Source of the DNA: Nibribacter ruber
GTDB lineage: Bacteria > Bacteroidota > Bacteroidia > Cytophagales > Hymenobacteraceae
Assembly (NCBI RefSeq): GCF_009913235.1
Contig: NZ_CP047897.1
Location: 1,693,501 to 1,757,500, forward strand
Direction: 5' to 3'
DNA length: 64,000 nucleotides
Part shown: positions 2,577 through 61,350 of the stretch, piece after piece
Numbering within the stretch: position 1 is the stretch's first letter
Layout: each line of letters starts with the position of its first letter
The notes under the pieces: model-generated
Seen by the model: only the letters and a program-made list of their open reading frames with translations
Told to the model about the DNA's origin: nothing
Database searches by the model: none
Translations under genes and position numbers: made by a program

Positions 2577-2614
2577 TGTTTTTAGGCTGTTTTCCAGAAA
2601 ATAAGCCAAAAACG
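2577..2614. repeat. 38-bp palindromic element, copy 1
   Basis: T-rich left arm with GGCTG core, centre CCAG, right arm AAGCCAAAAACG. It starts 6 bases after the bshA stop, with the right arm partly mismatched (AAATAAGCC). Confidence 0.85.
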
Positions 2615-2672
2615 AGATTCCTATTGGCTGGGACAGAGTAAACTTCCCGTTGAACACTTTGGTTTGCAAGAC

Positions 2673-3053
2673 ATGGAAAACTTTAAAATAGGGCAATACT
2701 TACTCCTGATCGTGGTCATACAGGCCCTGACCACGCTGGGCTTTGGGTTCATTCAGGAAGGCGGGGACTGGGAGGTCGTTCCTATGTACCCAGTGGTGTA
2801 CCTGCTGCCTGCCGTCTTCATCAATTACCTGTATGGCTTGCTGCTGCAGATTTTCAGCCCTAAGCTGCCCGCCAACGGCTTCTGGATTCTGTGGTTCATC
2901 CTAGGCACCGGGTTTCTGCTGGTGAATGAGCTGTTCATTCAGGGAGCCACGGTCATGGTGCATTTCATTGTTCTGGCCGCTGCTTTTTTGAACCTCGTCT
3001 ACTTCTACAAAGACCTGGGCAGAAAGAAACCTACCTACCAAAATCCATCCTAG
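2673..3053 (+). CDS. Small membrane protein of unknown function
   Basis: A 126-residue protein that is mostly hydrophobic, with four likely membrane segments at about residues 9-27, 38-58, 68-87 and 92-111, and a basic C-terminal tail (YKDLGRKKPTYQ). The start is taken as ATG 2673; an in-frame TTG lies three codons upstream but has nothing to recommend it. I do not recognise the family. It sits alone between two copies of the palindromic element, so it is probably a single-gene transcript. Confidence 0.6.
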   Translation: MENFKIGQYLLLIVVIQALTTLGFGFIQEGGDWEVVPMYPVVYLLPAVFINYLYGLLLQIFSPKLPANGFWILWFILGTGFLLVNELFIQGATVMVHFIVLAAAFLNLVYFYKDLGRKKPTYQNPS

Positions 3054-3058
3054 CCCTT

Positions 3059-3096
3059 CGTTTTTGGCTTCTTTTCCAGAAAACAGCCCAAAAACG
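3059..3096. repeat. 38-bp palindromic element, copy 2
   Basis: Starts 6 bases after the stop at 3053. Centre CCAG, right arm ends CAGCCCAAAAACG. Confidence 0.88.
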
Positions 3097-3180
3097 ACAA
3101 TGGAGCCATCTCCACATTTTCAAATCATCAAATTGAGAAAATAGCACATCGGCACATTAACTCATTAGCACTTTAAATAT
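3097..3180. repeat. Low-complexity repeat of CACAT/TTCAAAT units
   Basis: Runs of words such as CTCCACATTTTCAAATC and AGCACAT... of the same kind as at 11372-11453, 36050-36130 and 60383-60583. Such tracts are frequent between genes in this window; no gene is seen in it. Confidence 0.6.
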
Positions 3181-3183
3181 CCC

Positions 3184-3753
3184 GTGAAACCATCGCATTC
3201 TACAGAGAACCCCTGGACCACCCTTCAGACCGAACCAAAATACAGCAACCCCTGGATTAGCGTGCGCGAAGACCAGGTCATCAATCCTGCCGGTGGAAAA
3301 GGCATTTACGGCGTGGTTTCCATGAAAAACAAGGCCATTGGCATCATCCCGATAGACGCGGAAGGCAATACGTGGCTGGTGGGCCAGTACCGCTATCCTT
3401 TGAACGAATACTCCTGGGAGATTCCCATGGGCGGCGGACCGGTGGAACTGGATGTGCTGGAGTCTGCGCAACGCGAGTTGAAGGAAGAAACGGGCTTCAC
3501 GGCTGCCCGCTGGACCAAGATTGCGCGCGTGCACACGTCTAACTCGGTCACAGATGAAGAAGGCTTCATTTTTTTAGCCGAAGACCTGACTGCCGGCGAG
3601 ACTGAGTTTGAGGAAACCGAGGACATTAAAATATGGAAGATTCCTTTGGCTGAGGCGGTGGAAATGGCCATGCGCGACGAGATCACAGACTGTATTTCGG
3701 TGGCGGGACTGCTGAAGGCCGAGCGCTTTCTGGCCGCCCGAAAGAACAAATAA
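3184..3753 (+). CDS. Nudix hydrolase (ADP-ribose pyrophosphatase-like)
   Basis: A 189-residue Nudix protein, likely hydrolysing a nucleoside diphosphate linked to another moiety such as ADP-ribose. The Nudix helix ends in RELKEETGF (residues about 95-103), which carries the metal-binding REUXEEXGU. The upstream part, GGGPVELDVLESAQ, has Leu where the box normally has its first Glu, a small departure from the canonical motif; the metal-binding glutamates are intact. The start is GTG 3184, since no ATG lies before the conserved N-terminal beta strands. Single gene between palindromic copies 2 and 3. Substrate is not settled by sequence alone. Confidence 0.85.
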   Translation: MKPSHSTENPWTTLQTEPKYSNPWISVREDQVINPAGGKGIYGVVSMKNKAIGIIPIDAEGNTWLVGQYRYPLNEYSWEIPMGGGPVELDVLESAQRELKEETGFTAARWTKIARVHTSNSVTDEEGFIFLAEDLTAGETEFEETEDIKIWKIPLAEAVEMAMRDEITDCISVAGLLKAERFLAARKNK

Positions 3754-3792
3754 TTTCCTGGAGGTAGCACTAAATGCACAGGCAGGCTGTTC

Positions 3793-3830
3793 CGTTTTTG
3801 CCCTGTTTTCCTGAAAACACTCTAAAAACG
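3793..3830. repeat. 38-bp palindromic element, copy 3
   Basis: Lies 40 bases after the Nudix gene. Left arm CGTTTTTGCCCTGTTTTC, centre CT; right arm GAAAACACTCTAAAAACG is partly decayed. Confidence 0.8.
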
Positions 3831-3872
3831 GCAAAGGCAGACGGTGTGCGTGGTACTATTTTAAATTATTTG

Positions 3873-3880
3873 TAATTTTG
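3873..3880 (+). promoter_or_regulatory. Possible -7 promoter box before plsC
   Basis: TAATTTTG fits the Bacteroidota -7 consensus TAnnTTTG, but it ends only 5 bases before the ATG at 3886. If it is used, the mRNA would be leaderless or nearly so. No clear -33 TTTG is present, so this is tentative. Confidence 0.35.
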
Positions 3881-3885
3881 AAGAG

Positions 3886-4680
3886 ATGAACTGGCTAAAG
3901 AAAACCGGAAAGAGAGCGTATTCTGTGTGGTGTACCACATGGTTCGTGCTGCCATTTATCACCTCCTATCCCCTGTTCAGGCTTTTCGTCTCCAAACCTA
4001 AATGGTACCGCCACGGCCACATGCTCAACCGCATTTGGTCTAAAGTGCAGTTGCGCATGTACCTGATGCCCGTGAAAGTACGCGGCCGTGAGTTCTTGGA
4101 CCCCAACCAGAAATACGTTTTCGCGCCCAATCACAGTTCGTTCATAGATATTCCCATGGTGTTGGCGGCCATTCCCGGCTTCCTTAATTTTGTGGGCAAG
4201 AAGTCGCTCACCAAAGTGCCGTTGTGGGGCCTGATCTATGACCGTCTGTACATTTCTGTGGACCGTAAAAGCGCCGTCAGCAGTGCCAAAGCCTATATCT
4301 CCAGCAAGAAAAGTCTGGAAGAAGGACGCAGCGTGGTGATTTTCCCGGAGGGGACCATTTCTGAGGAAGCTGGCAAGGAACTGCTGCCTTTCAAGGACGG
4401 TCCGTTTAAACTAGCCATTGAGAAGCAGGTGCCGCTGGTACCCATCTCCATGCCGTACAACCATCTCTTTCTGCCAGACGTGAAAGGGAAACTGGTGATC
4501 AGATACCATCGTCTGGAGATGACCATTCACAGACCCATACCTACTGAAGGCCTCACGTTGCAAGATGTTGAGTTTTTGAAACAGCAGACCTTTTCCATTA
4601 TTCAAGAAGAATTACACGCCAAGAACCATGAGCACCAATATAGAAACACTCCGTCAGTTAGCGCACTTAGCCCGGCTTGA
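3886..4680 (+). CDS. plsC: 1-acyl-sn-glycerol-3-phosphate acyltransferase
   Basis: A 264-residue PlsC-family acyltransferase that adds the second acyl chain to lysophosphatidic acid at the inner membrane. The HX4D catalytic motif is NHSSFID (residues about 82-88), and the FPEGTIS substrate block is near residue 153. A hydrophobic segment near residues 15-32 probably anchors it. The last 53 bases overlap the next gene, gatC, in another frame; the overlapping tail (after AKNHEHQY) is low in recognisable conservation. This suggests translational coupling, or an over-long tail caused by loss of an earlier stop. Confidence 0.9.
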   Translation: MNWLKKTGKRAYSVWCTTWFVLPFITSYPLFRLFVSKPKWYRHGHMLNRIWSKVQLRMYLMPVKVRGREFLDPNQKYVFAPNHSSFIDIPMVLAAIPGFLNFVGKKSLTKVPLWGLIYDRLYISVDRKSAVSSAKAYISSKKSLEEGRSVVIFPEGTISEEAGKELLPFKDGPFKLAIEKQVPLVPISMPYNHLFLPDVKGKLVIRYHRLEMTIHRPIPTEGLTLQDVEFLKQQTFSIIQEELHAKNHEHQYRNTPSVSALSPA

Positions 4681-4915
4681 GTTTGATGAGACCAAAGAGC
4701 AGGAAATGCTCAAAGGCTTAAATGAGATCCTGGACTGGGTGGACCAACTGCGCCAGCTGGACACGGCCAACGTAGAACCGCTGGTGCACATGTCTGAAGA
4801 AGTGAACGTGCTGCGCGAAGACGTAGCCCAGAACACCGTGAGCCATGAAGACGCCCTGCGTCTGGCCCCGCGCAAAGACTCAGATTATTTCAGGGTTCCT
4901 AAAGTGATGGAATAG
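4628..4915 (+). CDS. gatC: Aspartyl/glutamyl-tRNA amidotransferase subunit C
   Basis: A 95-residue GatC. In the GatCAB complex it helps GatA and GatB convert mischarged Glu-tRNA(Gln) or Asp-tRNA(Asn) to the right amide form. The family pattern is clear: LRQLAHLARLEF at the N-terminus, ILDWVDQL in the middle and the conserved C-terminal LREDVA ... APRKDSDYFRVPKV. The ATG at 4628 lies inside plsC, giving a 53-base overlap. gatA and gatB are not in the window. The following gene starts 6 bases after the stop, so gatC is in an operon with the membrane TPR protein. Confidence 0.93.
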   Translation: MSTNIETLRQLAHLARLEFDETKEQEMLKGLNEILDWVDQLRQLDTANVEPLVHMSEEVNVLREDVAQNTVSHEDALRLAPRKDSDYFRVPKVME

Positions 4916-4920
4916 GCTTG

Positions 4921-7900
4921 ATGGCTTTCGTTGCTTTCTGGAAAAACATAGAGAAGGGCCCGCGTGCCCTTTATCTTTTACTATTGGTTGCCGTTCTGGC
5001 CGCCGTGGGTTTGGGCTTCTACGGATTTTACAAAGGCGACCAGCTGGTGTTTCCGTTGGAGAGACAGGCCGAGCTGTATCCCGCCGAGGCCCATTTGGAT
5101 GCTTCCTCTCCCCTGCTCACGCTTATCAGGATTGAGGCCAACGCCTATCTGGTCTCTGAACGCTACACCGTGGGTGCCATGCAATTACCCGTCTGGGCCG
5201 TTTGGGCGGTATTGGCCGGTATGGGCGCGGCGCTCACTTTCTTCTGGAGCATTATCAGTTCTTTAAAGCGCATGCCGTTTTACGTGGCCATTGGCCTGGG
5301 CATGCTGTGGCTGGCTACCTTCAACCTGGATCTGCTGGGCATTTTTTCTGAGACCGGCCGTACCCTTCTTCTCATTGTGCTGGGGGTGTTGGGTGGAGTG
5401 AGCTATCTGTTTCATTCTTTCCTGCCGCAGGTAAGTTTCATCAAACGGTTCTTGGTCTTCGCCCTGCTGGTGATTGGCCTAGGACTGGCTATTTTTTATG
5501 CGTCTCCATTTCCGGCAGAACAGACGGCCATGCACCTGGTCAATTACAGTACCATGGGCAGTATGGTGGCCTCAGCCCTGTTCTTGTTATTGGTGGCGTA
5601 TGAGAATTTGCATGGATTGCTTTGGTTCAATACGCAGGCCCAGCAGCCGCAGCGCCGTTTTGGTTTGCCGCAGTTTGTGCTCATCAGTGTGCTGTATCTG
5701 GGCAACCTGTTGTTGCTTTACCTAAAACAGAACAACGTCCTGGACCTGGACATTTTCCTGCTGCACCCCTTCCTGATTTTGCTTTGCTCTGCGCTGGTGG
5801 GTTTCTGGGGCTTGCGTCAACGGCAGCTGCATTACTCCCGCTTCCTGCGTTTTGAGACAGAAGCGGCGCCCATTTACTTGGTGCTGGCTTTACTTACCGC
5901 TCTCAACCTGGCCTACGCCTTGTTATTAGCCAATGACGCCTTCCTGAAATCTTACGCCAACCTGATCGTTCTCACCCACCTGGCATACGGAGTACCTTTC
6001 CTGATTTACGTGCTGGTGAACTTCGCGCCTTTGATTAAGCAAAAGCTGCGCGTGTATAAAGTAGTGTATGAACCCCGGCGTCTGCAATATTACACGGTGT
6101 ATTTGATGGGATCAGTGATTCTGGTGATCCTCATCATGCAGTCCTACTATGCGGTGCAGCACCAGGCCATGGCCGGCTATTATACTTACTTAGGAGATTT
6201 ATACCGCCAGACCGAAGCCAAGCCCTTATTGGCAGAACAGTATTACGCAGAAGGCGCAGACCGAAGCAGAACCAGCCAGCGCGCCCGGCTTTCGCTTCTG
6301 GACATGTACCACCAGGGCGGCATGCGCACCCTGGAACTGAGAATGCTGGAAAACTTATTGCAACAGAATCCGGCCCCGGCCCATTACCTGCGGTACGCCA
6401 ACTTACTCACAGACCAGGCAGACTTGTTTGCGCACCTGCAGTTGCTCCGCGACGGCGTGAAAGCATTTCCGGAGAACGGGCCGCTGTTGAATAACCTGGC
6501 CTTGTTGTATGGCACTACCACCTTCCAGGATTCGGCGGCGCTTTACCTGGATGAAGCCCTTTCCCATGCGGTGGATCCAGAGGTAGTGCAGGCCAACCAA
6601 CTGGCTTTCCTGCTTCGGCATGGCTATGAGGCGCAGGCCAAAGAGTTTGCCAACAAGTATGAGGGAACCTATAGCCCGCTATTGACCAACAAACTAGCCA
6701 TTGCCTATCTCCTGAAACAGAGTACCCCCAGTGAGTTGCCTGGCGTTTTGAAGGATAGTGTTTTGACGCCACAGTCGTTTGCTGGCTTTTACCTGCGGCA
6801 TTTGGTGCCCACAGTCAAAGCAGACACAGCCGCCGTTACCACCATTGATCATCTGCTATCACAGGAGGCCAATCAGCCTTACGCAGATGATTTGATCTTG
6901 CTCAAAGGGTTGCTGCAACAGCGCCAAGGCTTGGCGCGTGAGGCCAAGGCCACTTTAACCCGGTTGGCCACCTCCAGCGAGGCCGGAGCCGGATATTACA
7001 AAGACATTCTGGGACAATGGATGTTGCAGGCCCAATTATACCCCCTAGCATTGCAGTACTTTCAGGAGGCTGGCCAGGCCCGCTATAAGGATGCGCAGTT
7101 GCACGGGGCCATCGCGGCCGCGTTAAACCAGGACTTTGGGCTGGCCGCTCAGATTGCCTTGCAGCCGGCCAGTGCGTTTCCAGACCAGGGCCAGCAACAG
7201 GCGGCCACGGCCATTGTCATTGCTTCCCAGCTCACGGCAGAACAAGCCACCTCGGCGCCAGATTCGCTTAAAGTGCGGTTCCTGCAATTGCAGGCTTCCC
7301 AATTACCCGTGGCAGAAGTGGAGAGGGTGGCTCAGCAGATTACCACGCCTGCTTTGGCACCGGTGGCGGCGCTTCCGTTGGTAGCCAGGTACGTGCAGGA
7401 AGGTAACCTGCTGGAGGCGCAGCGGCAGTTGAACACGCACTTCCCTAAGAATTTCCCCAACAACCTGCTCAAATCTCAGGCGCATGTGCTGCAAGGGCAT
7501 ATCTGGCAAAAGGCGGGGCAGTGGAAGGAACTGGAACAGACCTTGCCCAAGCTGTATTTTGCGCAGCAGCACCTGGGGACTAAACTTTATTTACAGGCGC
7601 AGGTTGCTCAGCGTAATAAACAGAGTAAACAAGCGACTAATCTCTATAACCAGCTTTCAGAAAAGGCCCCGGGGCATGAGCAAGGCCAATTGGCCGCGGC
7701 TTCTTTCTTTAGTGCCCAGAAGCAGGGATTACGCGCGTATGACATTTTACTAGAGGCGGTTAACTACAACCCATTGTCGGTTACCCTCAGGAAAGCCTAT
7801 ATCAAAGAGGCACTCCAACAGGGTTTGAAAGACTATGCCTTGCAGGGGTTGGAAGGGTTACAACCTTTGGTTAGTCCTACGGAATACCTTACCTTTAAAA

Positions 7901-7956
7901 GAGAAATAGACGCCCACCTGCAGGCCAGTGATTCACTGAACCAGAGTTGGCAGTAA
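4921..7956 (+). CDS. Large polytopic membrane protein with C-terminal TPR-like repeats
   Basis: A 1011-residue protein I cannot assign to a named family. The first 420 residues hold about eleven hydrophobic segments (for example near 18-38, 85-108, 118-138, 148-168, 178-196, 250-270, 318-340 and 395-412). The remaining 590 are soluble, Ala/Leu/Gln-rich helical pairs of the TPR type (for example [14 protein letters not shown] and [26 protein letters not shown]), presumably facing the periplasm or cytoplasm as a protein-binding arm. ATG 4921 is preferred over the TTG just before it. The gene lies between gatC and an ABC ATPase with short gaps (5 and 13 bases), so it may work with that ATPase; this is inference from position only. 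Confidence 0.7.
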
Positions 7957-7969
7957 GGACACACAGCCT

Positions 7970-8704
7970 ATGAGCACCATCATTCAAACCAATGAGATTT
8001 CGCGCATGTACCAGATGGGCACCGAGACCATCCATGCCCTCAGGTCTATTTCCATTGAGATTCAGAAAGGCGAATACGTGGCGTTCATGGGACCGTCTGG
8101 TTCTGGAAAGTCCACGCTCATGAACATCATTGGCTGCCTGGACACGCCCACCAGCGGCACCTATATTCTGAACGGCAAGGATGTGAGCAACATGGTAGAC
8201 AATGAGCTGGCCACGGTGCGTAACCGGGAGATTGGCTTCGTGTTCCAAACGTTCAACCTGTTGCCCCGGTCTTCATCTCTTGAGAATGTGGCCTTGCCTT
8301 TGATTTATGCCGGCTACAGCAAATCTGACCGCGAAGAAAAAGCCATGGAAGCCCTGAGAAGCGTAGGTCTGGACACCCGGGCCAAGCACAAGCCCAATGA
8401 ACTGTCGGGTGGGCAGCGCCAACGTGTGGCCATTGCCCGCGCCTTGGTGAATGACCCCAGCATTATCCTGGCAGATGAGCCAACTGGTAACCTGGACTCC
8501 AAGACCTCTTATGAGATCATGGAGCTGTTTGAGAACCTTTACGCCAAGGGCAACACCATCATCATGGTAACCCACGAAGACGACATAGCCCATTACGCGC
8601 ACCGCATAGTGCGCCTGCGCGATGGCCTGATTGAGTCTGACGTAATTAATGACAACGTGACGATCCCTCATTTACAGGCCGCCGCGCACAACGCATCTAT
8701 CTAG
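7970..8704 (+). CDS. ABC transporter ATP-binding protein (MacB/LolD type)
   Basis: A 244-residue ABC ATPase of the group that powers lipoprotein release, MacB-type export and FtsX-like permeases. It has Walker [10 protein letters not shown] (about 41-49), a Q-loop VFQTFNLLP, signature [15 protein letters not shown] (about 144-158), Walker [14 protein letters not shown] and the switch His in VTHEDD. The run DEPTGNLDS and the short Q-loop context are typical of the LolD/MacB group. No permease gene lies next to it; the upstream neighbour is a membrane/TPR protein and the downstream one a cobalamin adenosyltransferase 3 bases away. The transported substrate is unknown. Confidence 0.88.
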
Positions 8705-8707
8705 TTA

Positions 8708-9259
8708 ATGAAAATTTACACCAAGACCGGCGACAAAGGCGAAACCTCTTTGATTGGCGGCACCCGCGTTAAAAAATCACACGTCCGCATTGAGGCCTAC
8801 GGCACTGTAGACGAGCTCAACTCCTTTATTGGCGTAGTGCGTGACCAGGAAGTAAACCTAAAGCGCCAGGCCCTTTTCTCTGAAATACAGGACCGCCTGT
8901 TCACAATAGGTTCTACTTTGGCTACAGATCCAGAAAAAGACACCAAAATCCAGACCCCAGACCTGCACGAAGAAGACATTAAGCTGTTAGAGAAAGAGAT
9001 GGACGCTTTGGACCAGAACCTGCCGCCTTTGCGTAACTTCATCCTGCCGGGCGGCCACGTGGCTGTATCATTTTGTCATGTGGCGCGTACAGTGTGCAGA
9101 CGGGCAGAACGTCTTTCCATTGCCTTGCAAGAAGACTCTCCCGTAGATGATCTTATCATCAAGTACCTGAACAGACTTTCTGACTTCCTTTTTGTTCTAA
9201 GCCGCGCCATGAGCCAAGAGCTGGGCGCACAAGAAATAACCTGGAAGCCTCGTATCTGA
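8708..9259 (+). CDS. Cob(I)alamin adenosyltransferase, PduO/ATR type
   Basis: A 183-residue PduO-type ATP:cob(I)alamin adenosyltransferase, which makes adenosylcobalamin. The N-terminal MKIYTKTGDKGETSLIGG is the family's ATP-binding signature; the helical block with YGTVDELNSFIG and the conserved RRAERL (within CRRAERLSIAL) complete it. Length is normal. It starts 3 bases after the ABC ATPase stop and ends in a terminator that overlaps its stop codon. Its product is the cofactor of the methylmalonyl-CoA mutase at 40.9-45.5 kb, so the two loci are functionally tied though 32 kb apart. Confidence 0.92.
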   Translation: MKIYTKTGDKGETSLIGGTRVKKSHVRIEAYGTVDELNSFIGVVRDQEVNLKRQALFSEIQDRLFTIGSTLATDPEKDTKIQTPDLHEEDIKLLEKEMDALDQNLPPLRNFILPGGHVAVSFCHVARTVCRRAERLSIALQEDSPVDDLIIKYLNRLSDFLFVLSRAMSQELGAQEITWKPRI

Positions 9260-9270
9260 GGCTTTTTTTA
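9246..9270 (+). terminator. Intrinsic terminator overlapping the adenosyltransferase stop codon
   Basis: AGCCTC pairs with GAGGCT around a 6-base loop and is followed by TTTTTTT. The TGA stop lies in the stem, so it closes the gatC-to-adenosyltransferase operon. Confidence 0.85.
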
Positions 9271-9314
9271 TTGGAGCATTACCTAAAAACCGTACATACT
9301 CACCTATTGTTTTT

Positions 9315-10385
9315 ATGCAATCAGACATCATGACTATTCATACCCAAGTAACCACCGCCAGCCGGTTGGCAGACCTGGACATGGAGAACATCCAGTTCGG
9401 GAAAATCTTTGCAGACCACATGGTTTCCATTGACTATGCAAACGGCGAGTGGCAGACACCCCAGATCTTACCGTATGGCCCTATTGAACTAAGCCCGGCC
9501 ACGGCAGCATTGCATTATGGCCAAGCTTTGTTTGAAGGCATGAAAGCCTATAAAACCGTAGACGGCCAGGTTGTGTTGTTCCGGCCGCAAGCCAACTGGG
9601 CCCGCATGAACGAGTCTGCCAAGCGTCTGTGCATGCCAGAGATCCCGGAGGAGTTGTTCATGGAAAGCCTCAAGCAACTCATTGCCCTGGATGCAAACTG
9701 GGTACCTGGCAAAGTGGGTAACTCACTGTACATAAGACCCTTCATGTTTGCCAGTGATGCCTTGGTGGGTGTACGCCCGTCAGAGACGTATAAGTTCATG
9801 ATTTTCTGCAGCCCTGCCAGCCAGTATTACGCTGAGCCGGTGCGCGTGAAGATTGAAGAAAAATACACCCGCTCTGTAGAAGGCGGCGCCGGTTACGCCA
9901 AAGCAGCCGGTAACTACGGTGCCTCTCTATACCCAACCAAGTTGGCGCAGGAGAAAGGCTTCCATCAAGTGATCTGGACAGACGGCAAAGAGCACAACTT
10001 CATTGAAGAATCTGGTACCATGAACGTGATGTTTGTGATTGACGGCAAATTAATCACGCCTGCTTTGAGCTCCTCTATCCTGGCTGGTATCACCCGCGAC
10101 AGCGTGTTGCAACTGGCCCGCGACTGGGGAATGCCGGTGGAAGAGCGCCGCATCTCTGTACAGGAGATTGTAGACGCTCACGCCGCTGGTACCCTGGAAG
10201 ACGCCTTTGGCACCGGCACGGCCGCTACCATTGCGCCCATCAAGTCCATCATGTACAAAGAACATGAGATGGAATTGCCGGCCGTGGCCAACCGTACTTT
10301 CTCTAACAAAGTAGCCGCAGAACTAGACAAAATCAGACACGGCCAGGCAGAAGACGTGCACGGCTGGATGGTTCCGGTTCAGTAG
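9315..10385 (+). CDS. ilvE: Branched-chain amino acid aminotransferase
   Basis: A 356-residue fold-type IV PLP aminotransferase of the type II BCAT group, doing the last transamination of valine, leucine and isoleucine synthesis (or the first of their breakdown). Recognisable blocks are ALHYGQALFEGMKAY near residue 57, the PLP-lysine context YAKAAGNYGAS near residue 195, EESGTMNVMFV near 235 and the phosphate-binding SSSILAGITRDS near 253. A second ATG at 9330 is an equally possible start. It is followed by a long hairpin (10409-10470) and palindromic copy 4. Confidence 0.93.
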   Translation: MQSDIMTIHTQVTTASRLADLDMENIQFGKIFADHMVSIDYANGEWQTPQILPYGPIELSPATAALHYGQALFEGMKAYKTVDGQVVLFRPQANWARMNESAKRLCMPEIPEELFMESLKQLIALDANWVPGKVGNSLYIRPFMFASDALVGVRPSETYKFMIFCSPASQYYAEPVRVKIEEKYTRSVEGGAGYAKAAGNYGASLYPTKLAQEKGFHQVIWTDGKEHNFIEESGTMNVMFVIDGKLITPALSSSILAGITRDSVLQLARDWGMPVEERRISVQEIVDAHAAGTLEDAFGTGTAATIAPIKSIMYKEHEMELPAVANRTFSNKVAAELDKIRHGQAEDVHGWMVPVQ

Positions 10386-10408
10386 AGCTACGGTCAGACA
10401 CAAGCTAT

Positions 10409-10470
10409 AAGACGCAAGACACAAGGCCTTCTCAGGTAATCACATCTGAGAATCTTGTATCTTGCGTCTT
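10409..10470. repeat. Long imperfect hairpin of AAGACGCAAG type
   Basis: AAGACGCAAGACACAAG at 10409-10425 pairs with the arm at 10454-10470 with one mismatch (a G-T pair), with TCTCAG/CTGAGA inside. It is REP-like, and can act as 3'-end hairpin of ilvE. Confidence 0.75.
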
Positions 10471-10503
10471 TCCTATGTGAGAAGATTGTGAAATGAAGAA
10501 TGC

Positions 10504-10541
10504 CGTTTTTAGCCTGTTTTACAGAAAATAAGCCAAAAACG
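10504..10541. repeat. 38-bp palindromic element, copy 4
   Basis: Left arm CGTTTTTAGCCTGTTTTA, right arm GAAAATAAGCCAAAAACG. It lies between ilvE and the next plus-strand gene. Confidence 0.85.
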
Positions 10542-10582
10542 ACGGTTGAATCCAAACCAGAATCATTTTCTGACATTCATTT

Positions 10583-11353
10583 ATGCGCAGACTTGCCTTA
10601 GCTTTTCTCTTTCTTGTCGCTCTTACAACGGCCTCCTTCCAGGCTGCTCAAGATCCAGGTGCCATAGATTTTTATCCAAAAGTCCAGGCTTTTGATTTAA
10701 GCTCTGTTTTGGCCGCAGACAGCATTTCTATTGAAGATGAGCAGAGAAAGATTGAAAAGCAGGAGCCTTTTGGTTTTATTGGCGACGACTATCAAAGGTT
10801 CTTCATTCATTTTACGTCTGTTATAAAAAATCCAGACAATGCATATCAATACCTGGTCTATGGAAAATCAAGGGTTAAAGATACCGTTTGCGATTTTCAA
10901 GGAACCATCACGGTCAAAAGTGCCAGGCTCCTAAAGGAAAGTGACCACCCAACATTCAAGCAAGGCATGGTTGTAGGCGAATACAAGTTCTATGAAAATG
11001 GAAGGCTTCCCGCCACAGGCTTTCTACAAGGAAAAGTTACTACAGATTTTTACCTGGACGAGAAACAGAAAATCCATTACGACGACTTAATGTTCTCAGC
11101 GGACGGCTTCAAGAATAATCAGTTCCAAGGAACCTGGACGAGTTATAAAACAGGAATTACCAAGAAATGTAACTGGGGAGATTATAGAATCCCATCCAGC
11201 GGAGATTTAGACATTGGGGCCGGTGAATTCAGTGTAAATGGGAAATACATAAAAAACGGCTGGCAAAACTACATGAAGGCCTTTATTGGAAACCCTGATT
11301 TACCTGAAACCAAAAAGGCAAAAGCGACGGAAGAGGCGAAATGGTGGAAATAG
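10583..11353 (+). CDS. Secreted protein of unknown function
   Basis: A 256-residue protein with a clear signal peptide (MRRLALAFLFLVALTTASFQA, cut near residue 21). The rest is a soluble domain rich in beta-type sequence with motifs such as GMVVGEYKFYENGRLPATGFLQGKV... and a late cysteine in KKCNWGDYRI. The repeated GxYxFYENGRL-like and FQGTWTSY text recalls MORN-like toxin/antitoxin-neighbour repeats, but too few units are present to name it. Base composition is more A+T rich than its neighbours, consistent with a lineage-specific gene. Single gene between repeats. Confidence 0.6.
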   Translation: MRRLALAFLFLVALTTASFQAAQDPGAIDFYPKVQAFDLSSVLAADSISIEDEQRKIEKQEPFGFIGDDYQRFFIHFTSVIKNPDNAYQYLVYGKSRVKDTVCDFQGTITVKSARLLKESDHPTFKQGMVVGEYKFYENGRLPATGFLQGKVTTDFYLDEKQKIHYDDLMFSADGFKNNQFQGTWTSYKTGITKKCNWGDYRIPSSGDLDIGAGEFSVNGKYIKNGWQNYMKAFIGNPDLPETKKAKATEEAKWWK

Positions 11354-12591: not shown

Positions 12592-12629
12592 CGTTTTTAG
12601 GCTAATTTCTGCAAAACAGGCCAAAAACG
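12592..12629. repeat. 38-bp palindromic element, copy 5
   Basis: Left arm CGTTTTTAGGCTAATTTC (decayed), right arm CAAAACAGGCCAAAAACG. It sits directly behind the prfB terminator hairpin. Confidence 0.82.
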
Positions 12630-13970: not shown

Positions 13971-14016
13971 AAAAACGGTGGCCCATGCTTTTTGTAAAGC
14001 ATGGGCCACCGTTTTT
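13971..14016. terminator. Strong bidirectional terminator fused to palindromic copy 6
   Basis: Perfect 21-bp stem: AAAAACGGTGGCCCATGCTTT at 13971-13991 pairs with 13996-14016 around TTGT. The right arm ends in CGTTTTT, which is also the left end of copy 6. It lies between convergent genes. Confidence 0.92.
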
Positions 14017-14047
14017 GGCATCTTTTCCAGAAAACAGGCTAAAAACG
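14010..14047. repeat. 38-bp palindromic element, copy 6
   Basis: CGTTTTTGGCATCTTTTC, centre CA, right arm GAAAACAGGCTAAAAACG. Shares CGTTTTT with the preceding terminator; ends 3 bases before the minus-strand SDR stop. Confidence 0.88.
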
Positions 14048-14975: not shown

Positions 14976-15013
14976 CGTTTTTGGCCTTTTTTCTGGAAAA
15001 GAAGCCAAAAACG
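14976..15013. repeat. 38-bp palindromic element, copy 7
   Basis: Centre reads CTGG on the plus strand, that is CCAG on the minus strand, the sense of the neighbouring hslU and SDR genes. Right arm AAAAGAAGCCAAAAACG. Confidence 0.85.
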
Positions 15014-16778: not shown

Positions 16779-16816
16779 CGTTTTTGGCCTATTTTCTAGA
16801 AAACAGGCCAAAAACA
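16779..16816. repeat. 38-bp palindromic element, copy 8
   Basis: CGTTTTTGGCCTATTTTC, TA, GAAAACAGGCCAAAAACA: close to consensus. It is 83 bases 3' of the minus-strand gene ending at 16899. Confidence 0.93.
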
Positions 16817-17481: not shown

Positions 17482-18531
17482 TCAAAGCTCCGGCGCTTTA
17501 CTCAAAAAGCTGTTCAGGTCGGTGGTGAGCGTGAGGTAATGACCGGCGCCGGCCACGTGAAACTTGGCGTAGCTGTAGTCAAACCGGAAGGCTTTGATAC
17601 GGATAGAACTCCCGAAGGAGAAACCCGCCATACCGCCCGCGTTTTCCTGAACCAGTTCCTGGTGCCGCAAATGGTTGTACCCCGCCCGCAATTGAAAGTT
17701 TTGACTCAAGAGAAATTCACCACCTACCACAAAGTGCCGGGCCAGCTGGTCCCCGAAGCTTTTTTCTTCCTTCACCTCCTCGTTGTTCTCATTGATGGTG
17801 CCTTTTTGGTTGGGGTCTAGATAGACAATATCCCATCTATGCAACTGATGTCCCGTCACCGACAATCTGAACGGCGCGTGCTCTGGTTTGTAGCTCACGC
17901 CCAGTTGTATATCCAAAGGCAGAGGCTCGCGGTCACTGCCGTCATAGGGTTTGAGCATAAGGCCCAAGTTTTTGATGGCCACACCTACAATCAGTTCTTT
18001 TTCTGGATGCTTGAACGAACCGCCCAAGTCTAAAGCTGTTGCGAAGGCCTGGTTTCCGGCAATGTTAGAAACCGCCCCTTTTAAGGTACCGCCCACCGTT
18101 ATATGTTCAATGGTAGACGCATGCGAAAGCGTGACCACGTAATCCCGCACGTTAAAGCTTCCTTCCTCCAGACCGGCGGCATCGCGTTGGGTGAAATCCC
18201 CATAGTCCAGATACTGTACACCCACGGCGTTTCTGCCGTATTTGGGGTGGTCAAAGGTGTACTGGACGTTGTTTTGGCTGATGTCTGAGAGGTAGTTGAG
18301 GTGTGTGAAAGACAAATGCCGATTGGTCTTGCCTTGCATCAGCGCCGGGTTTTCCGTGACGGCATTCACCTCTTCCAGCCCGGACGAAATATTGATGCCA
18401 CCCAAGGCCGCCACCCGTGCGTGGGTAGGGACTTGCAGAAACGAAAAAGCAGAACGCCCTCCTATCTGGGCATAGGTACACTGTAGCACAGCAACCCATA
18501 GAAGCCCCAGAAGGAAAAGGCGTTTTTGCAT
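17482..18531 (-). CDS. porQ: Type IX secretion system protein PorQ
   Basis: A 349-residue outer-membrane beta-barrel-type protein with a signal peptide (MQKRLFLLGLLWVAVLQCTYAQ, cut near residue 22). The mature start QIGGRSAFSFLQVPTHARVAALGG is the hallmark of PorQ, and many alternating beta strands follow, ending in an aromatic-rich C-terminus. In type IX secretion PorQ belongs with the PorU/V/Z attachment complex that fixes cargo to the cell surface. The start codon and first codons lie inside a decayed copy of the 38-bp palindrome (18521-18558), so the initiation region could fold into a hairpin. Confidence 0.85.
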   Translation of the reverse strand: MQKRLFLLGLLWVAVLQCTYAQIGGRSAFSFLQVPTHARVAALGGINISSGLEEVNAVTENPALMQGKTNRHLSFTHLNYLSDISQNNVQYTFDHPKYGRNAVGVQYLDYGDFTQRDAAGLEEGSFNVRDYVVTLSHASTIEHITVGGTLKGAVSNIAGNQAFATALDLGGSFKHPEKELIVGVAIKNLGLMLKPYDGSDREPLPLDIQLGVSYKPEHAPFRLSVTGHQLHRWDIVYLDPNQKGTINENNEEVKEEKSFGDQLARHFVVGGEFLLSQNFQLRAGYNHLRHQELVQENAGGMAGFSFGSSIRIKAFRFDYSYAKFHVAGAGHYLTLTTDLNSFLSKAPEL

Positions 18532-18558
18532 TGTTTTCGTGAAAATAGGCTAAAATCA
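18521..18558. repeat. 38-bp palindromic element, copy 9, overlapping the porQ start
   Basis: CGTTTTTGCATTGTTTTC, GT, GAAAATAGGCTAAAATCA. Decayed but of exact length. The porQ ATG (complement of 18529-18531) is inside the left arm. Confidence 0.7.
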
Positions 18559-23415: not shown

Positions 23416-23489
23416 CTCTTGCCACAAATCTTCCGTTTTTGGCCTGTTTTCTAGGAATTAGCCCAAAAACGGAAGGTTTGTGGCAAGAG
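23416..23489. terminator. Extended hairpin enclosing palindromic copy 10
   Basis: The 18 bases left of copy 10 (23416-23433, CTCTTGCCACAAATCTTC) pair with the 18 bases to its right (23472-23489) with one G-T pair, so the whole 74 bases fold as one hairpin with the 38-bp element at its tip. Confidence 0.85.
23434..23471. repeat. 38-bp palindromic element, copy 10
   Basis: CGTTTTTGGCCTGTTTTC, TA, GGAATTAGCCCAAAAACG. It lies 28 bases after the PorE-like gene, at the tip of a longer stem. Confidence 0.9.
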
Positions 23490-24051: not shown

Positions 24052-24089
24052 CGTTTTTGGCTTGTTTTACAGAAAACAGGCCAAAAACG
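24052..24089. repeat. 38-bp palindromic element, copy 11
   Basis: CGTTTTTGGCTTGTTTTA, CA, GAAAACAGGCCAAAAACG. Flanking bases CAAACCTCC and GGAGTTTG pair with a one-base bulge, extending the stem. It lies between convergent genes. Confidence 0.92.
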
Positions 24090-28288: not shown

Positions 28289-28326
28289 CGTTTTTGGGCT
28301 GCTTTTGCGAAATTAGGCTAAAAACG
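28289..28326. repeat. 38-bp palindromic element, copy 12
   Basis: CGTTTTTGGGCTGCTTTT, GC, GAAATTAGGCTAAAAACG. It is 16 bases before dxr and 62 bases 3' of the minus-strand lipoprotein gene. Confidence 0.82.
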
Positions 28327-30572: not shown

Positions 30573-30887
30573 AGGTAGGTGGTTGGTAAGTTGGTAAAGA
30601 TAAGAATCTAGGGCTTGTATCCAGAAAAGAGATGCCCACTAATTTACATCGCCATGGCTAAAATTGCTCCTGCCGGGTTCTTTTTAATGCACCTTCCGCT
30701 TTTTGCCAGTTTCCTAGAAAAGAAGCCAAAAACGGCATCAATACTCTATTTCTTCCTTCGCCAGAAATGCCCTTTTCTTTTAACCAGATGCCTTTGCTCT
30801 GGCTTGCCTAGTTTTTTTAAAACAGGAAAACTTCTAACTTAAACAGCGCAAACAAGTACACATCAACACATTTAACCATCTACAACT
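30573..30887. other. Divergent intergenic region between the GH3 gene and osmC
   Basis: No gene is seen in these 315 bases. It holds palindromic copy 13 at 30697-30734, one of only two copies in the window that lie between divergent genes, so copy 13 is not at a 3' end. No convincing promoter box found. Confidence 0.5.
30697..30734. repeat. 38-bp palindromic element, copy 13
   Basis: CGCTTTTTGCCAGTTTCC, TA, GAAAAGAAGCCAAAAACG. Decayed left arm. Confidence 0.72.
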
Positions 30888-31894: not shown

Positions 31895-31932
31895 CGTTCT
31901 CGGGCTATTTTCCCGGAAACAGCGTAAAAACA
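31895..31932. repeat. 38-bp palindromic element, copy 14 (decayed)
   Basis: CGTTCTCGGGCTATTTTC, CC, GGAAACAGCGTAAAAACA. Its right end AAAAACA is also the left end of the next terminator. Confidence 0.65.
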
Positions 31933-31982: not shown

Positions 31983-32020
31983 CGTTTTTGGCCTGATTTC
32001 AGGAAATCAGGCTAAAAACG
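31983..32020. repeat. 38-bp palindromic element, copy 15
   Basis: CGTTTTTGGCCTGATTTC, AG, GAAATCAGGCTAAAAACG. A14-T25 replaces the consensus T-A pair on both sides, a compensatory change. Confidence 0.93.
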
Positions 32021-32306: not shown

Positions 32307-32344
32307 CATTTTTAGGTTGTTTTCTGGAAATCAGGCCAAAAACG
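32307..32344. repeat. 38-bp palindromic element, copy 16
   Basis: CATTTTTAGGTTGTTTTC, TG, GAAATCAGGCCAAAAACG. It ends 2 bases before the peroxiredoxin stop (minus strand); its centre reads CCAG in that gene's sense. Confidence 0.85.
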
Positions 32345-37762: not shown

Positions 37763-38037
37763 TGGATAATGACCAGGGACCAGTGATTAATGATTGATCA
37801 CCAATGGTTAGGGCTTCACTGGTTTATAAATCATTTACCCCAATAACAAACTCCGTTTTTGGCCTAGTTTCTAGAAAACAGGCCAAAAACGGAGTTTGCC
37901 TTTTTAGACTTTTCTATTCACGCTACTTCTTTTTCTGCCTTCTGCTTTACAAATTAGCCCATTTCCATATTTTCCATTAGTCATTATTCATTAATCACTA
38001 TTAAGTATCTTGCACCTTCCGCAAACGGACTTTACCC
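37763..38037. repeat. Inverted low-complexity tracts flanking copy 17
   Basis: GACTAATGGATAATGACC and GTGATTAATGATTGATC on the left (about 37757-37800) mirror TTAGTCATTATTCATTAATC and CACTATTAA on the right (about 37975-38003), with copy 17 between. No gene seen. Confidence 0.5.
37854..37891. repeat. 38-bp palindromic element, copy 17
   Basis: CGTTTTTGGCCTAGTTTC, TA, GAAAACAGGCCAAAAACG. Flanks CAAACTC and GAGTTTG extend it to a 52-base palindrome, followed by CCTTTTTAG, a terminator-like end. Confidence 0.95.
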
Positions 38038-39107: not shown

Positions 39108-39145
39108 CGTTTTTGGGCTGTTTTCATGAAAACAGCCCAAAAACG
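39108..39145. repeat. 38-bp palindromic element, copy 18 (perfect palindrome)
   Basis: CGTTTTTGGGCTGTTTTC, AT, GAAAACAGCCCAAAAACG. C10-G29 is swapped to G10-C29, so pairing is kept. Flanked by CC and GG. Confidence 0.95.
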
Positions 39146-40748: not shown

Positions 40749-40786
40749 CGTTTTTGGCCTATTTCTCAGAAAACAGGCTAAAACCG
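40749..40786. repeat. 38-bp palindromic element, copy 19
   Basis: CGTTTTTGGCCTATTTCT, CA, GAAAACAGGCTAAAACCG. Lies in a divergent promoter region (DUF72 and mutase small subunit), so a pure terminator role does not explain it. Confidence 0.85.
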
Positions 40787-42751: not shown

Positions 42752-42789
42752 CGTTTTTGGCCTGTTTTCCAAGAATCAGGCTAAAAACG
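42752..42789. repeat. 38-bp palindromic element, copy 20
   Basis: CGTTTTTGGCCTGTTTTC, CA, AGAATCAGGCTAAAAACG, with AACTT/AAGTT flanks that extend the stem by 5 bp. Confidence 0.93.
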
Positions 42790-43344: not shown

Positions 43345-45477
<2,133 letters not shown>

Positions 45478-45624: not shown

Positions 45625-45687
45625 GCAAACCTCCGTTTTTGGCTTGTTTTCTAGAAAACAAGCCAAAAACGGAGGTTTGCTTTTTTT
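45625..45687. terminator. 56-bp perfect palindrome with T-run, around copy 22
   Basis: GCAAACCTC and GAGGTTTGC flank copy 22, making a perfect 56-base inverted repeat (45625-45680), followed by TTTTTTT. It would end transcription from the mutase side. Confidence 0.92.
45634..45671. repeat. 38-bp palindromic element, copy 22 (perfect palindrome)
   Basis: CGTTTTTGGCTTGTTTTC, TA, GAAAACAAGCCAAAAACG. C11-G28 is replaced by T-A on both sides. Confidence 0.96.
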
Positions 45688-46382: not shown

Positions 46383-46420
46383 CGTTTTTGGCCTGTTTTC
46401 CAGAAAACAGGCCAAAAATG
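46383..46420. repeat. 38-bp palindromic element, copy 23
   Basis: CGTTTTTGGCCTGTTTTC, CA, GAAAACAGGCCAAAAATG. Nearly consensus; CCAG centre; T-rich tail follows. Confidence 0.94.
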
Positions 46421-49319: not shown

Positions 49320-49357
49320 TACTTTTAGCGTAGTTTCCAGAAAATAGCCTAAAAACG
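49320..49357. repeat. 38-bp palindromic element, copy 24 (decayed)
   Basis: TACTTTTAGCGTAGTTTC, CA, GAAAATAGCCTAAAAACG. It ends one base before the meaB start codon. Confidence 0.7.
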
Positions 49358-50351: not shown

Positions 50352-50389
50352 AGTTTTTGGCCTCTTTTTCAGAAAAGAGCCTAAAAACG
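50352..50389. repeat. 38-bp palindromic element, copy 25
   Basis: AGTTTTTGGCCTCTTTTT, CA, GAAAAGAGCCTAAAAACG. G13-C26 of the consensus is changed to C13-G26: a compensatory swap. It is 10 bases after meaB. Confidence 0.88.
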
Positions 50390-54270: not shown

Positions 54271-54310
54271 GGAACGCCCCGCAGAACTCTCTGCGGGGCG
54301 TTCCGTTTTT
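54271..54310. terminator. Terminator joined to palindromic copy 26
   Basis: GGAACGCCCCGCAGA (54271-54285) pairs perfectly with 54290-54304 around ACTC, then GTTTTTAG. The last C of the stem is the first base of copy 26. Confidence 0.93.
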
Positions 54311-54341
54311 AGCCTGTTTTACCGAAAACAGGCTAAAAACG
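54304..54341. repeat. 38-bp palindromic element, copy 26
   Basis: CGTTTTTAGCCTGTTTTA, CC, GAAAACAGGCTAAAAACG. A8-T31 replaces the consensus G-C pair on both sides. Confidence 0.94.
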
Positions 54342-54462: not shown

Positions 54463-54510
54463 TAAAAACGGAAGGCCCGCTGATGTATGTCAGCGGGCCT
54501 TCCGTTTTTA
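54463..54510. terminator. Bidirectional terminator joined to palindromic copy 27
   Basis: TAAAAACGGAAGGCCCGCTG plus A (54463-54483) pairs perfectly over 21 bp with 54490-54510 across TGTATG. The right arm's CGTTTTTA is the left edge of copy 27. Confidence 0.93.
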
Positions 54511-54540
54511 GGCTATTTCCCAGAAAAGAAGCTAAAAACG
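54503..54540. repeat. 38-bp palindromic element, copy 27
   Basis: CGTTTTTAGGCTATTTCC, CA, GAAAAGAAGCTAAAAACG. Left edge doubles as the terminator tail. Confidence 0.86.
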
Positions 54541-56488: not shown

Positions 56489-56526
56489 CGTTTTTGGCCT
56501 CTTTTCTAAGAAACAGGCTAAAAACG
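56489..56526. repeat. 38-bp palindromic element, copy 28
   Basis: CGTTTTTGGCCTCTTTTC, TA, AGAAACAGGCTAAAAACG, 42 bases after aroQ. Confidence 0.87.
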
Positions 56527-59718: not shown

Positions 59719-59748
59719 AGCCATCACTTCTTACTTAACCCCAAGCCA

Positions 59749-59786
59749 GTTTTTGGTCAGTTTTTTTGAGAAACAAGCCAAAAACG
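59749..59786. repeat. 38-bp palindromic element, copy 29 (decayed)
   Basis: GTTTTTGGTCAGTTTTTT, TG, AGAAACAAGCCAAAAACG; left end has lost the CG. Confidence 0.75.
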
Positions 59787-59890
59787 GACTTCTTCATTGA
59801 ATGGCTTCTTTTATCCCCACGTTTGGCAATCCAACTACCTACCTTGAAAATAATCTTGTGGCGGGTTAGGACGGCTGGCGTGGCAAGTGG

Positions 59891-59898
59891 TAATTTTG
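59891..59898 (+). promoter_or_regulatory. -7 promoter box of rnhA
   Basis: TAATTTTG fits TAnnTTTG, 22 bases before the TTG start at 59921, a typical short leader. Confidence 0.5.
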
Positions 59899-59920
59899 CG
59901 GTCCACTAACCTTTCATGCT

Positions 59921-60382
59921 TTGATTGAGATTTTTACCGATGGCGCCTCCCGAGGCAATCCGGGTCCGGGTGGCTACGGCGTGATTCTGCGCTACGGCCC
60001 GCATGTGAAGGAACTAAGCGAAGGCTTTAGAAAGACCACCAACAACCGCATGGAGCTGCTGGCCGTGATTGTGGCCCTGGAGTCCATCACCAAACCGGGC
60101 ATTCCCGTCACCGTCTACTCAGACTCAAAATACGTGATTGATGCCGTGGAAAAGCGCTGGGTGTTTGGCTGGGAGAAGAAAGGCTTCACCGGCAAGGCCA
60201 ACCCAGACCTTTGGCAGCGCTTCCTGAAGATTTACCGAAAGCACCAGGTGCGCTTCGTGTGGGTACGCGGCCACAACGGCCACCCCGAAAACGAACGCTG
60301 CGATGAACTAGCCGTCGCCGCTGCCCTGCAACCCCACCTCCCCCCAGACAAAGGTTTCGAAGCCAATCCTACCAAAGGTTGA
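59921..60382 (+). CDS. rnhA: Ribonuclease HI
   Basis: A 153-residue RNase HI that removes the RNA strand of RNA-DNA hybrids. The four metal-binding acidic residues are clear: Asp in IFTDGASRGNPG (Asp7), Glu in NRMELLAV near 45, Asp in VYSDSKYV near 67 and Asp in NERCDELAVA near 131. The TTG at 59921 is the start: the only earlier ATG (59916) is in another frame, and the fold begins immediately. C-terminal ten residues are low complexity. Confidence 0.94.
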   Translation: MIEIFTDGASRGNPGPGGYGVILRYGPHVKELSEGFRKTTNNRMELLAVIVALESITKPGIPVTVYSDSKYVIDAVEKRWVFGWEKKGFTGKANPDLWQRFLKIYRKHQVRFVWVRGHNGHPENERCDELAVAAALQPHLPPDKGFEANPTKG

Positions 60383-60583
60383 TTTGGAGATGTGAAGATT
60401 TGAAAATGTGGAGATTTGGAGATGGGATAAATTTCTAAAAAGTTGAATTCCTAAATTTTATAATCAATTCTCTACTAGCAACTTAATAATGCTGTTTTGG
60501 GCTTAGTTTCTGAAAAATAGGCCAAAAACGAATAACAATTTTTCAATCTGCACATCTCCACATTTTCAAATCTGCACATCTAA
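60383..60583. repeat. Inverted low-complexity tracts flanking copy 30
   Basis: TTTGGAGATGTGAAGATTTG at about 60383-60425 mirrors CACATCTCCACATTTTCAAA at about 60545-60575, with palindromic copy 30 near the middle. No gene seen. Confidence 0.65.
60493..60530. repeat. 38-bp palindromic element, copy 30
   Basis: TGTTTTGGGCTTAGTTTC, TG, AAAAATAGGCCAAAAACG; decayed left arm, good right arm. Confidence 0.78.
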
Positions 60584-60588
60584 TAAAA

Positions 60589-61305
60589 GTGGCCAACGAT
60601 TATTTCCAGTTCAAGCAGTTCTTGATCAAGCAGGACCAATGTGCCATGAAAGTGTGCACGGATTCTTGCGTGCTGGGAGCATCGGTGGAGGTGGACGGGG
60701 CTACCCGTGTTCTGGACATTGGGGCGGGCACCGGCCTGTTGAGCCTGATGGTGGCACAGCGCACTTCTGAAGAAACGCAGATAGAGGCTGTGGAGATTGA
60801 CGCGGCAGCGGCGCAGCAGGCCAAAACCAATATTTCGGCCAGTCCTTGGGCCAATCGCATTCAGTTGCACGCGCAGAGTTTGCAGGAGTTTGCACAGACC
60901 CAGCCCGAGCCGTTTGACGTGATCATCAGCAATCCGCCGTTTTTTCAAGCCTCTCTTAAGTCTGCAGACAGTGCCAAAAACGTGGCCAAGCACACAGAAA
61001 CGCTTTCTTTTAATGAGCTTCTGCAATTTGCCCACCAATATTTAACCCCCTCCGGAAGACTGCACATTCTGTTGCCACCCCATGAGGCCAAAGTGCTGGA
61101 AAGAGAAGCACACCGGCTGGGTTTTCACACCTACCACATCCTCTGGTTAGAAGCCACGCCTGGCGGAAAACTTTTGCGGGCCATTCATTCCTATGCTAAG
61201 ACGCCCGCGGCGCTCAGCCAAACCCGCCTGGCCGTTCGGGAGAAAGACAACGCCTACACGGCAGAATTTCAGGCGCTGCTCAGGCCCTTCTACCTTATTT
61301 TTTAA
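60589..61305 (+). CDS. trmN6: tRNA1(Val) adenine-37 N6-methyltransferase (TrmN6/YfiC)
   Basis: A 238-residue SAM-dependent methyltransferase that methylates A37 of valine tRNA. It opens FQFKQFLIKQDQCAMKVCTDSCVLGASV (core QFLIKQDQCAMKVCTD), the YfiC hallmark; SAM motif I is VLDIGAGTGLLSL near residue 42, and the adenine-methylase motif IV is IISNPPFF near 111. GTG 60589 starts just before the conserved N-terminus; there is no better codon. Low-complexity repeat lies in front of it. Palindromic copy 31 starts 8 bases after the stop. Confidence 0.9.
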   Translation: MANDYFQFKQFLIKQDQCAMKVCTDSCVLGASVEVDGATRVLDIGAGTGLLSLMVAQRTSEETQIEAVEIDAAAAQQAKTNISASPWANRIQLHAQSLQEFAQTQPEPFDVIISNPPFFQASLKSADSAKNVAKHTETLSFNELLQFAHQYLTPSGRLHILLPPHEAKVLEREAHRLGFHTYHILWLEATPGGKLLRAIHSYAKTPAALSQTRLAVREKDNAYTAEFQALLRPFYLIF

Positions 61306-61312
61306 TTAATGC

Positions 61313-61350
61313 CGTTTTTGGGCTCTTTTCCAGAAAACAGCCCAAAAACG
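61313..61350. repeat. 38-bp palindromic element, copy 31
   Basis: CGTTTTTGGGCTCTTTTC, CA, GAAAACAGCCCAAAAACG. C10-G29 becomes G10-C29, compensatory. Centre CCAG. Confidence 0.93.

Follow-up and report, generated by a model that had tools for sequence, protein, structure and literature searches.

We have analysed a 64,000-nt stretch of the Nibribacter ruber chromosome (NZ_CP047897.1, positions 1,693,501–1,757,500; hereafter the window), along which a palindromic element of about 38 bp, here called the dyad, recurs mostly between genes. A preliminary description of this stretch had listed copies at 31 start positions, and a near-38-bp dyad is present at all of them, with 10 to 19 of the 19 possible pairs matching (Table 1). 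Position weight matrix (PWM) scores lie between 33.8 and 61.9 for 30 of the copies, while that at 59749 reaches only 13.5, its register being off by one base. In each arm, two GTTTT tracts stand 11 bp from each other, that is, on the same helix face, and a G/C block that differs between species separates them; the whole dyad holds four GTTTT/AAAAC tracts. When 5-base words are counted together with their reverse complements, without supervision, the same spacings emerge (z up to 104).

To see how common the element is, a symmetric PWM was run on the window and on 20 sampled 20-kb stretches of the same genome (G000, a single contig of 4.35 Mb), 464 kb in total; the pattern or PWM read backwards served as the control throughout. 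The sample holds 185 copies at a score of at least 5 and 169 at a score of at least 35, about 400 per Mb. That is, the score distribution is sharply bimodal and decayed copies are few. The final reversed PWM gave 0 matches in the 464 kb at thresholds from 5 to 35, and the starting PWM a single reversed match of score 9.9. In the whole genome, a strict pattern has 24 exact copies versus 0 backwards, and with up to two mismatches 293 versus 0. The dyad is therefore far above chance level outside the window as well. The preliminary description had reckoned with thousands of copies genome-wide if the density held; the dense recurrence is borne out, while the number, by extrapolation from the 464-kb sample, is about 1,700.

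Placement of the dyads along the chromosome

Genes were called roughly with a hexamer model, which misses some of them (364 genes, 78% coding), and placement was counted for the 182 copies scoring at least 14, the three lower-scoring ones being dropped. By these calls, co-directional gaps hold 107 copies, convergent gaps 38 and divergent gaps 20; another 12 fall within called genes, and 5 at stretch edges are set apart. Most copies thus follow stop codons or occupy convergent gaps, and the frequency is not equal inside genes or at 5' ends. In co-directional gaps, the distance from the upstream stop to the start of the copy (median 36 bp) is at most 100 bp for 85 of the 107, at most 15 bp for 34 and at most 9 bp for 28.

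Occupancy depends on the kind and the length of the gap. For co-directional gaps it is 3/57 below 60 bp, 11/49 at 60–120 bp, 42/73 at 120–250 bp and 43/75 from 250 bp upwards. The convergent values are 0/3, 10/13, 9/13 and 12/17 for the same classes (31 of 43 from 60 bp upwards), and the divergent ones 0/4 at 60–120 bp, 3/13 at 120–250 bp (3/17 overall below 250 bp) and 16/26 at 250 bp or more. Within co-directional gaps, the first quarter after the stop holds 13 of 26 copies in gaps of 200–300 bp and 8 of 13 in gaps of 500–1000 bp. This first-quarter excess suggests that avoidance of promoters alone does not explain the 3' bias.

The spacing of the copies is irregular overall, with a coefficient of variation of 0.90 against 0.88 (sd 0.05) under random gap occupancy, while spacings below 500 bp are fewer than in this null (16 versus 21.3, sd 1.9). 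One sampled stretch, L012, is poor in sites, with 2 copies per 20 kb and 1 of 7 eligible gaps occupied, and bears a phage-type integrase gene at 10757–12097 among small genes; this single case is consistent with acquired DNA that came without dyads. In another, L009, the 15 kb at 1235–16296 is free of dyads and contains a tRNA-Leu gene at 2390–2471. Only two tRNAs occur in the 24 stretches scanned for them, too few to judge tRNA 3' ends.

Table 1 The 31 dyads of the window, their surroundings and their presence in relatives (G codes denote genomes of relatives; ORF, open reading frame)
Dyad	Surroundings	Relatives
2577..2614	5 bp past stop	G012 ortholog
3059..3096	5 bp past stop	G012 ortholog
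3793..3830	39 bp past stop	G012 ortholog
10504..10541	118 bp past stop	G012 ortholog
12592..12629	60 bp past stop	G012 ortholog
14010..14047	convergent gap	G012 ortholog
14976..15013	co-directional gap	G012 ortholog
16779..16816	co-directional gap	G012 ortholog
18521..18558	11-base overlap with longest reading of minus-strand ORF 17482-18531	G012 ortholog, 0.97 identical
23434..23471	convergent gap; flanks extend stem	G012 ortholog
24052..24089	convergent gap; long stem extended by flanks	G012 ortholog
28289..28326	co-directional gap	orthologous interval of G012 holds two dyads
30697..30734	divergent gap	G012 ortholog
31895..31932	7 bp past stop	G012 ortholog
31983..32020	lineage-specific DNA segment	segment missing from G012, G006, G003, G007
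32307..32344	same segment as 31983 copy	segment missing from G012, G006, G003, G007
37854..37891	extended stem and T-tract	G012 ortholog
39108..39145	extended stem, terminator-like	G012 ortholog
40749..40786	divergent gap	G012 ortholog
42752..42789	co-directional gap	G012 ortholog
43376..43413	in methylmalonyl-CoA mutase gene (codons 11-23)	same place in five relatives
45634..45671	19/19 pairs, extended stem and T-tract	G012 ortholog
46383..46420	far side of RAYT-like ORF from 45634 copy	
49320..49357	ends just ahead of ORF start of meaB-like gene	G012 ortholog
50352..50389	9 bp past stop	G012 ortholog
54304..54341	convergent gap	G012 ortholog
54503..54540	convergent gap	not in G012
56489..56526	co-directional gap	in all five relatives
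59749..59786	degenerate, register off by one base, score 13.5	G012 ortholog
60493..60530	co-directional gap	G012 ortholog; not in other four relatives
61313..61350	7 bp past stop	G012 ortholog

The rough calls cover 30 of the 31 window copies, that at 59749 being below the score cut. Two copies had been described as divergent (30697 and 40749); both are so, while the calls give a third at 37854, which may follow a gene that the caller missed. Two copies had also been said to touch coding sequence. Of the candidates, the one at 43376 lies inside a gene, that at 18521 overlaps an ORF, and that at 49320 only abuts an ORF start. None of the 31 falls between 32344 and 37854. The window also carries degenerate arrays with an 8-bp period (CAAATCTTCACATC and its complement), found on both strands at 3098–3175, 11364–11448, 36027–36139 and 60367–60581.

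Conservation in place and independence of the arms

The genus is Rufibacter. We have sampled ten of its 16 genomes, G000 included, with PWMs (40–464 kb each), and all ten carry the dyad at 390–700 per Mb, in consensus dialects, with 0–3 copies in the reversed controls. The median scores are 25–31 in G015, G001, G002, G004 and G007 versus 44–53 in the others. A relaxed pattern finds 20 to 1,527 copies in each of the 16 genomes, fewest in G014 (20) and G015 (44), and 0 in the reversed control throughout. Outside the genus, the same pattern occurs in 2 of 104 genomes of the family, with one match each and again 0 in the control. A pattern scan of named genomes gives at least 80 loci, and those listed belong to Rufibacter except one in Sabulibacter ruber, which leaves room for further genera. 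Within the family, the dyad is nearly restricted to the genus by the relaxed pattern, and five other family genera (one genome each, 40–80 kb) show no iterated dyads of their own, the best candidate having z 7 and five copies. In plasmids, a 44-base query has no match at E 0.01, which is a weak test; among viral contigs, a single stretch, L206, holds an exact relaxed dyad.

The copies are also conserved in place. Orthologous intervals retain the window sites in 28/31 cases in G012, 25/30 in G006, 25/28 in G003, 22/27 in G007 and 25/30 in G015, where the denominators omit copies without anchors and some intervals are wide or common to neighbouring copies. For sequence comparison only one-to-one pairs were kept, namely 26, 17, 16, 12 and 12 in the same order of genomes. 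For the 25 G012 pairs outside called genes, identity is 0.83 in the site versus 0.53 and 0.44 in the ungapped flanks. On the other hand, orthologous copies resemble each other little more than other copies do as distance grows: ortholog identity is 0.836 versus 0.747 across copies for G012, and 0.658 versus 0.627 for the 16 pairs with G003 (R. immobilis), where the within-species values are 0.740 and 0.681. Since ortholog identity approaches cross-copy identity with distance, the sites keep their places and their sequence tracks the consensus of the species. The copies of G015 have a variable interior and retain little besides the phased T and A tracts; TTTTC-1-GAAAA is seen 12 times there versus 0.6 expected, and a 37-bp model finds 60 copies versus 6 in the control. 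This suggests a 1-bp centre for the dyad of that species, weakly so given the 6 control matches.

The arms vary independently of each other around one symmetric consensus. In the 182 copies, Watson-Crick pairing departs by no more than 2 sd from what permutation predicts at 17 of the 18 pairs, and the outlier, pair 15 (z 4.3), is due to a single two-sided change in one copy. Over ten genomes and 549 copies, covariation in the core is absent in general, and one core test falls to z −2.5 (pair 14 in G007). Selection on RNA would favour G.U over A.C mismatches; oriented by transcription, the 107 co-directional copies show 118 G.U and 108 A.C in 1,926 cells (unoriented sums over the ten genomes are uninformative and were not used). 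Among the 26 G012 orthologs, 104 changes are one-sided and 19 two-sided, the pairing being kept in 5 of the latter. In several relatives, the interior N positions of perfect matches to the pattern do look compensatory, but those of the full PWM-selected sets do not, and we interpret these perfect matches as a terminator-like subset. Because covariation is lacking, G.U is about as frequent as A.C, and one-sided changes dominate, a hairpin of RNA or single-stranded DNA is disfavoured as the main object of selection.

In addition, the two arms occur together. Of the 364 arms inside copies, 339 score at least 16 bits, and at this threshold solo half-sites number 4 versus 1 in the control. Since solo half-sites are nearly absent, both arms appear to be needed together. 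Overall, this is the pattern of an operator-like dyad, as would suit duplex DNA recognised by a putative symmetric protein.

Alternative explanations

If a protein does occupy the dyads, it might simply halt RNA polymerase at gene ends as a roadblock terminator. Such a role would share all the evidence for a protein site, and it would suit the many copies close behind stops and the frequent occupation of convergent gaps. We consider it unlikely because a polymerase halted before the 34 co-directional copies that start within 15 bp of a stop (28 of them within 9 bp) would leave mRNAs without a stop codon, as judged from the size of the polymerase footprint. The 20 copies in divergent gaps also speak against it, as do the Rho encoded in G000 and the existence of ordinary terminator-like hairpins.

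Almost equally unlikely for the bulk of the copies is an RNA element, in which the transcribed dyad would be a hairpin that ends transcription or shields the mRNA 3' end. Its position at 3' ends is as expected, positions flanking the core covary in four species, and a minority of copies is secondarily built into intrinsic terminators. This last point follows from extended stems, downstream T-tracts and a G.U excess in the same 19 of the 107 co-directional copies (18%): the outer stem is extended by 4–12 bp, with 1.3 such copies expected by re-pairing flanks, a T-tract lies downstream in 17 of the 19 and on the opposite strand in 8, and G.U outnumbers A.C by 19 to 10. The remaining 88 copies have no extended stem; they show 99 G.U and 98 A.C, with T-tracts in 36 and 29 cases on the two strands. 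For these copies we have rejected an RNA terminator or stabiliser on the independence of the arms, the equality of G.U and A.C and the symmetry of the T-tracts. The suggestion of a terminator or 3'-stabiliser in the preliminary description thus holds for about one fifth of the co-directional copies and fails for the other 88, which bear no RNA signature. In the core hairpin, moreover, the G/C part is followed by a run of A and not of T, and a scan of the window finds no Rfam family at gathering score.

The dyads do not replace ordinary terminators either, a possibility rejected because other terminator-like hairpins have a similar frequency whether or not the gap holds a dyad: in gaps of 60–800 bp they occur in 18 of 88 co-directional gaps with a dyad and 19 of 96 without, and in 15 of 29 and 5 of 10 convergent gaps, respectively. 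In two sampled stretches a G/C-rich ordinary hairpin directly abuts a dyad (L004, 5978–6052; L040, 13050–13125).

A further candidate is a sequence for self-recognition in DNA uptake, spread by transformation like the DNA uptake sequence (DUS) or uptake signal sequence (USS). These are reported to have thousands of copies, species dialects and partial reuse in terminators (PMC3630211), all of which the dyads resemble. The shortage of short spacings could mean some spreading out, and ComEC is present in G000, which says little because its family also matches in 10 of 14 control genomes. However, the dyad is a symmetric 38-bp sequence that requires both arms, not an asymmetric word of 10–12 nt, and half-sites on their own stay near background. 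The ATPase of the T2SSE/PilB-PilT type (PF00437) is over the curated cut-off in 0 of 16 Rufibacter genomes versus 13 of 14 controls; in the genus, 8 of 16 genomes have sub-threshold matches covering 38–61 of 370 positions, this being the one pilus family searched. Given that no pilus ATPase passes the cut-off, that solo sites are lacking and that the spacing is overall as variable as under random occupancy, uptake was rejected and seems improbable to us.

More improbable still is a mobile or once-mobile palindrome, either a repetitive extragenic palindrome (REP) paired with a RAYT or a miniature inverted-repeat transposable element (MITE). REP elements are characterised in PMC3733652 as short extragenic palindromes of many copies, often downstream of genes, and the dyads are alike in each of these respects. 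Three Y1 transposase genes are found in G000. One of them, RAYT-like (45711–46262; PF01797, 24 bits), has dyads on both sides, and the other two loci (3.2 kb each) hold one and two dyads; a Y1_Tnp match exists in 15 of the 16 genus genomes. Yet the exception, G012, is rich in dyads (44 per 100 kb) without any Y1_Tnp match, and it keeps a single dyad in the 174-base interval that corresponds to window positions 45634–46420 with their two dyads and RAYT-like ORF. Unlike REPs, the dyads show no hairpin covariation and keep their positions across the genus; their flanks have nearly symmetric base counts and no unpaired, one-sided tag of the GTAG/CGTC type, and decayed copies are few. On the orthologous placement and the dyads of G012, REP/RAYT and MITE origins were rejected, which contradicts the earlier suggestion of a non-autonomous mobile palindrome.

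The true REP partner of the RAYT-like gene is possibly a different palindrome, GAGTC-N-GACTC, with four copies beside it at 45495–45611. This motif is counted 10 times in the G000 sample and 4 times in that of G006, and not at all in those of G012, G003, G007, G015 and G001. It is only a side argument since the samples of G001, G003, G007 and G015, which bear Y1_Tnp, are without it. One further copy, at 32252–32265, lies inside the segment of about 31983–32345 that is missing from four relatives.

Finally, a mutational or repair drive without a protein, as proposed for HIP1 of cyanobacteria, a highly iterated palindrome that PMC4390886 describes as of uncertain role and replaced by alternates in some species, would make and homogenise dyads in keeping with the concerted drift in G003, but it is the least credible of the explanations, for HIP1 has 8 bp, is tied to methyltransferases and is less bound to position, whereas the dyad has 38 bp and phased tracts, is tied to gene ends and lies inside called genes in only 12 of 182 copies.

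A putative architectural site at transcription-unit ends

Among the three options offered in the preliminary description, a nucleoid-protein site fits best, while the terminator holds in part and the mobile palindrome not at all. We propose, with a probability of roughly 0.6, that the dyad is a two-fold symmetric duplex site of about 38 bp for an abundant putative chromosomal protein with an architectural or boundary function at the ends of transcription units. Taken separately, the binding of a protein is highly probable in our judgement, while its architectural role at these ends is a tentative assignment, with the odds slightly against it.

As to mechanism, Rufibacter would have an abundant DNA-binding protein, itself symmetric, that docks on the roughly 1,700 copies where transcription units end or genes converge. 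Its function there would probably be architectural or that of a boundary, such as confining or relieving the torsion pushed ahead of RNA polymerase. The phased tracts suggest two contacts per arm on one helix face, four in all, which would suit a tetramer or a dimer whose subunits have two domains each. Some copies would later have been built into intrinsic terminators.

Several points weigh against this proposal. The protein that binds the dyads is itself putative, postulated from its sites, and the re-tuning of some 1,700 sites by one protein between species is a puzzle. Five of the 180 core tests in ten genomes reach z of at least 2.5 (pair 15 in G000, 12 in G012, 6 in G006, 15 in G007 and 17 in G002), three genomes have z above 2 at pair 12, covariation is seen at the positions bordering the core in G000, G012, G006 and G003, and the scores of the left and right arms are weakly correlated (rho 0.19, p 0.012). 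Long divergent gaps are also occupied, and since 20 of 182 copies are divergent and 12 lie inside called genes, the dyad does not strictly depend on a 3' end; avoidance of promoters and coding sequence may account for part of the 3' bias. In addition, the GapR family (PF10073), the nearest functional model, has no member in G000, the Caulobacter control being positive.

Comparison with known systems gives partial likenesses. Dispersed symmetric sites for an architectural protein include matS, the SlmA sites and parS; these occur regionally, in tens to hundreds of copies, and are not known to mark gene ends, in contrast to the roughly 1,700 dyads. Boxes of the PhoP/OmpR type are TGTTTA-N5-TGTTTA direct repeats. 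The GTTT words every 11 bp within a dyad arm are similar, while the two arms of the dyad face each other, some 1,700 times and mostly away from promoters, and the likeness may serve only as a hint at what kind of binding domain to expect. In placement, the dyads resemble GapR of Caulobacter, which PMC8360656 locates 3' of transcribed units and between convergent genes; GapR differs in that it tracks overtwisting, something that A/T content by itself fails to predict. Among the open-licence papers listed in a literature search, no title or abstract opening reports the dyad.

In its furthest form, the proposal would mean that Rufibacter has a dedicated boundary, sequence-specific and chromatin-like, at most of its longer transcription-unit ends, in which one abundant protein sits on about 1,700 fixed dyads and the recognition sequence drifts genome-wide between species. 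We regard this as possible rather than probable. If true, it would amount to a bacterial system of insulation or torsion control, for which we know of no described counterpart. The concerted drift of so many place-keeping sites deserves explanation in itself, and the 549 copies from ten genomes are a starting data set for it. If a protein does sit on the dyads, many gene ends of a bacterium would carry a fixed, site-specific landmark, and a boundary role in chromosome folding or supercoiling would become directly testable through one gene or one site.

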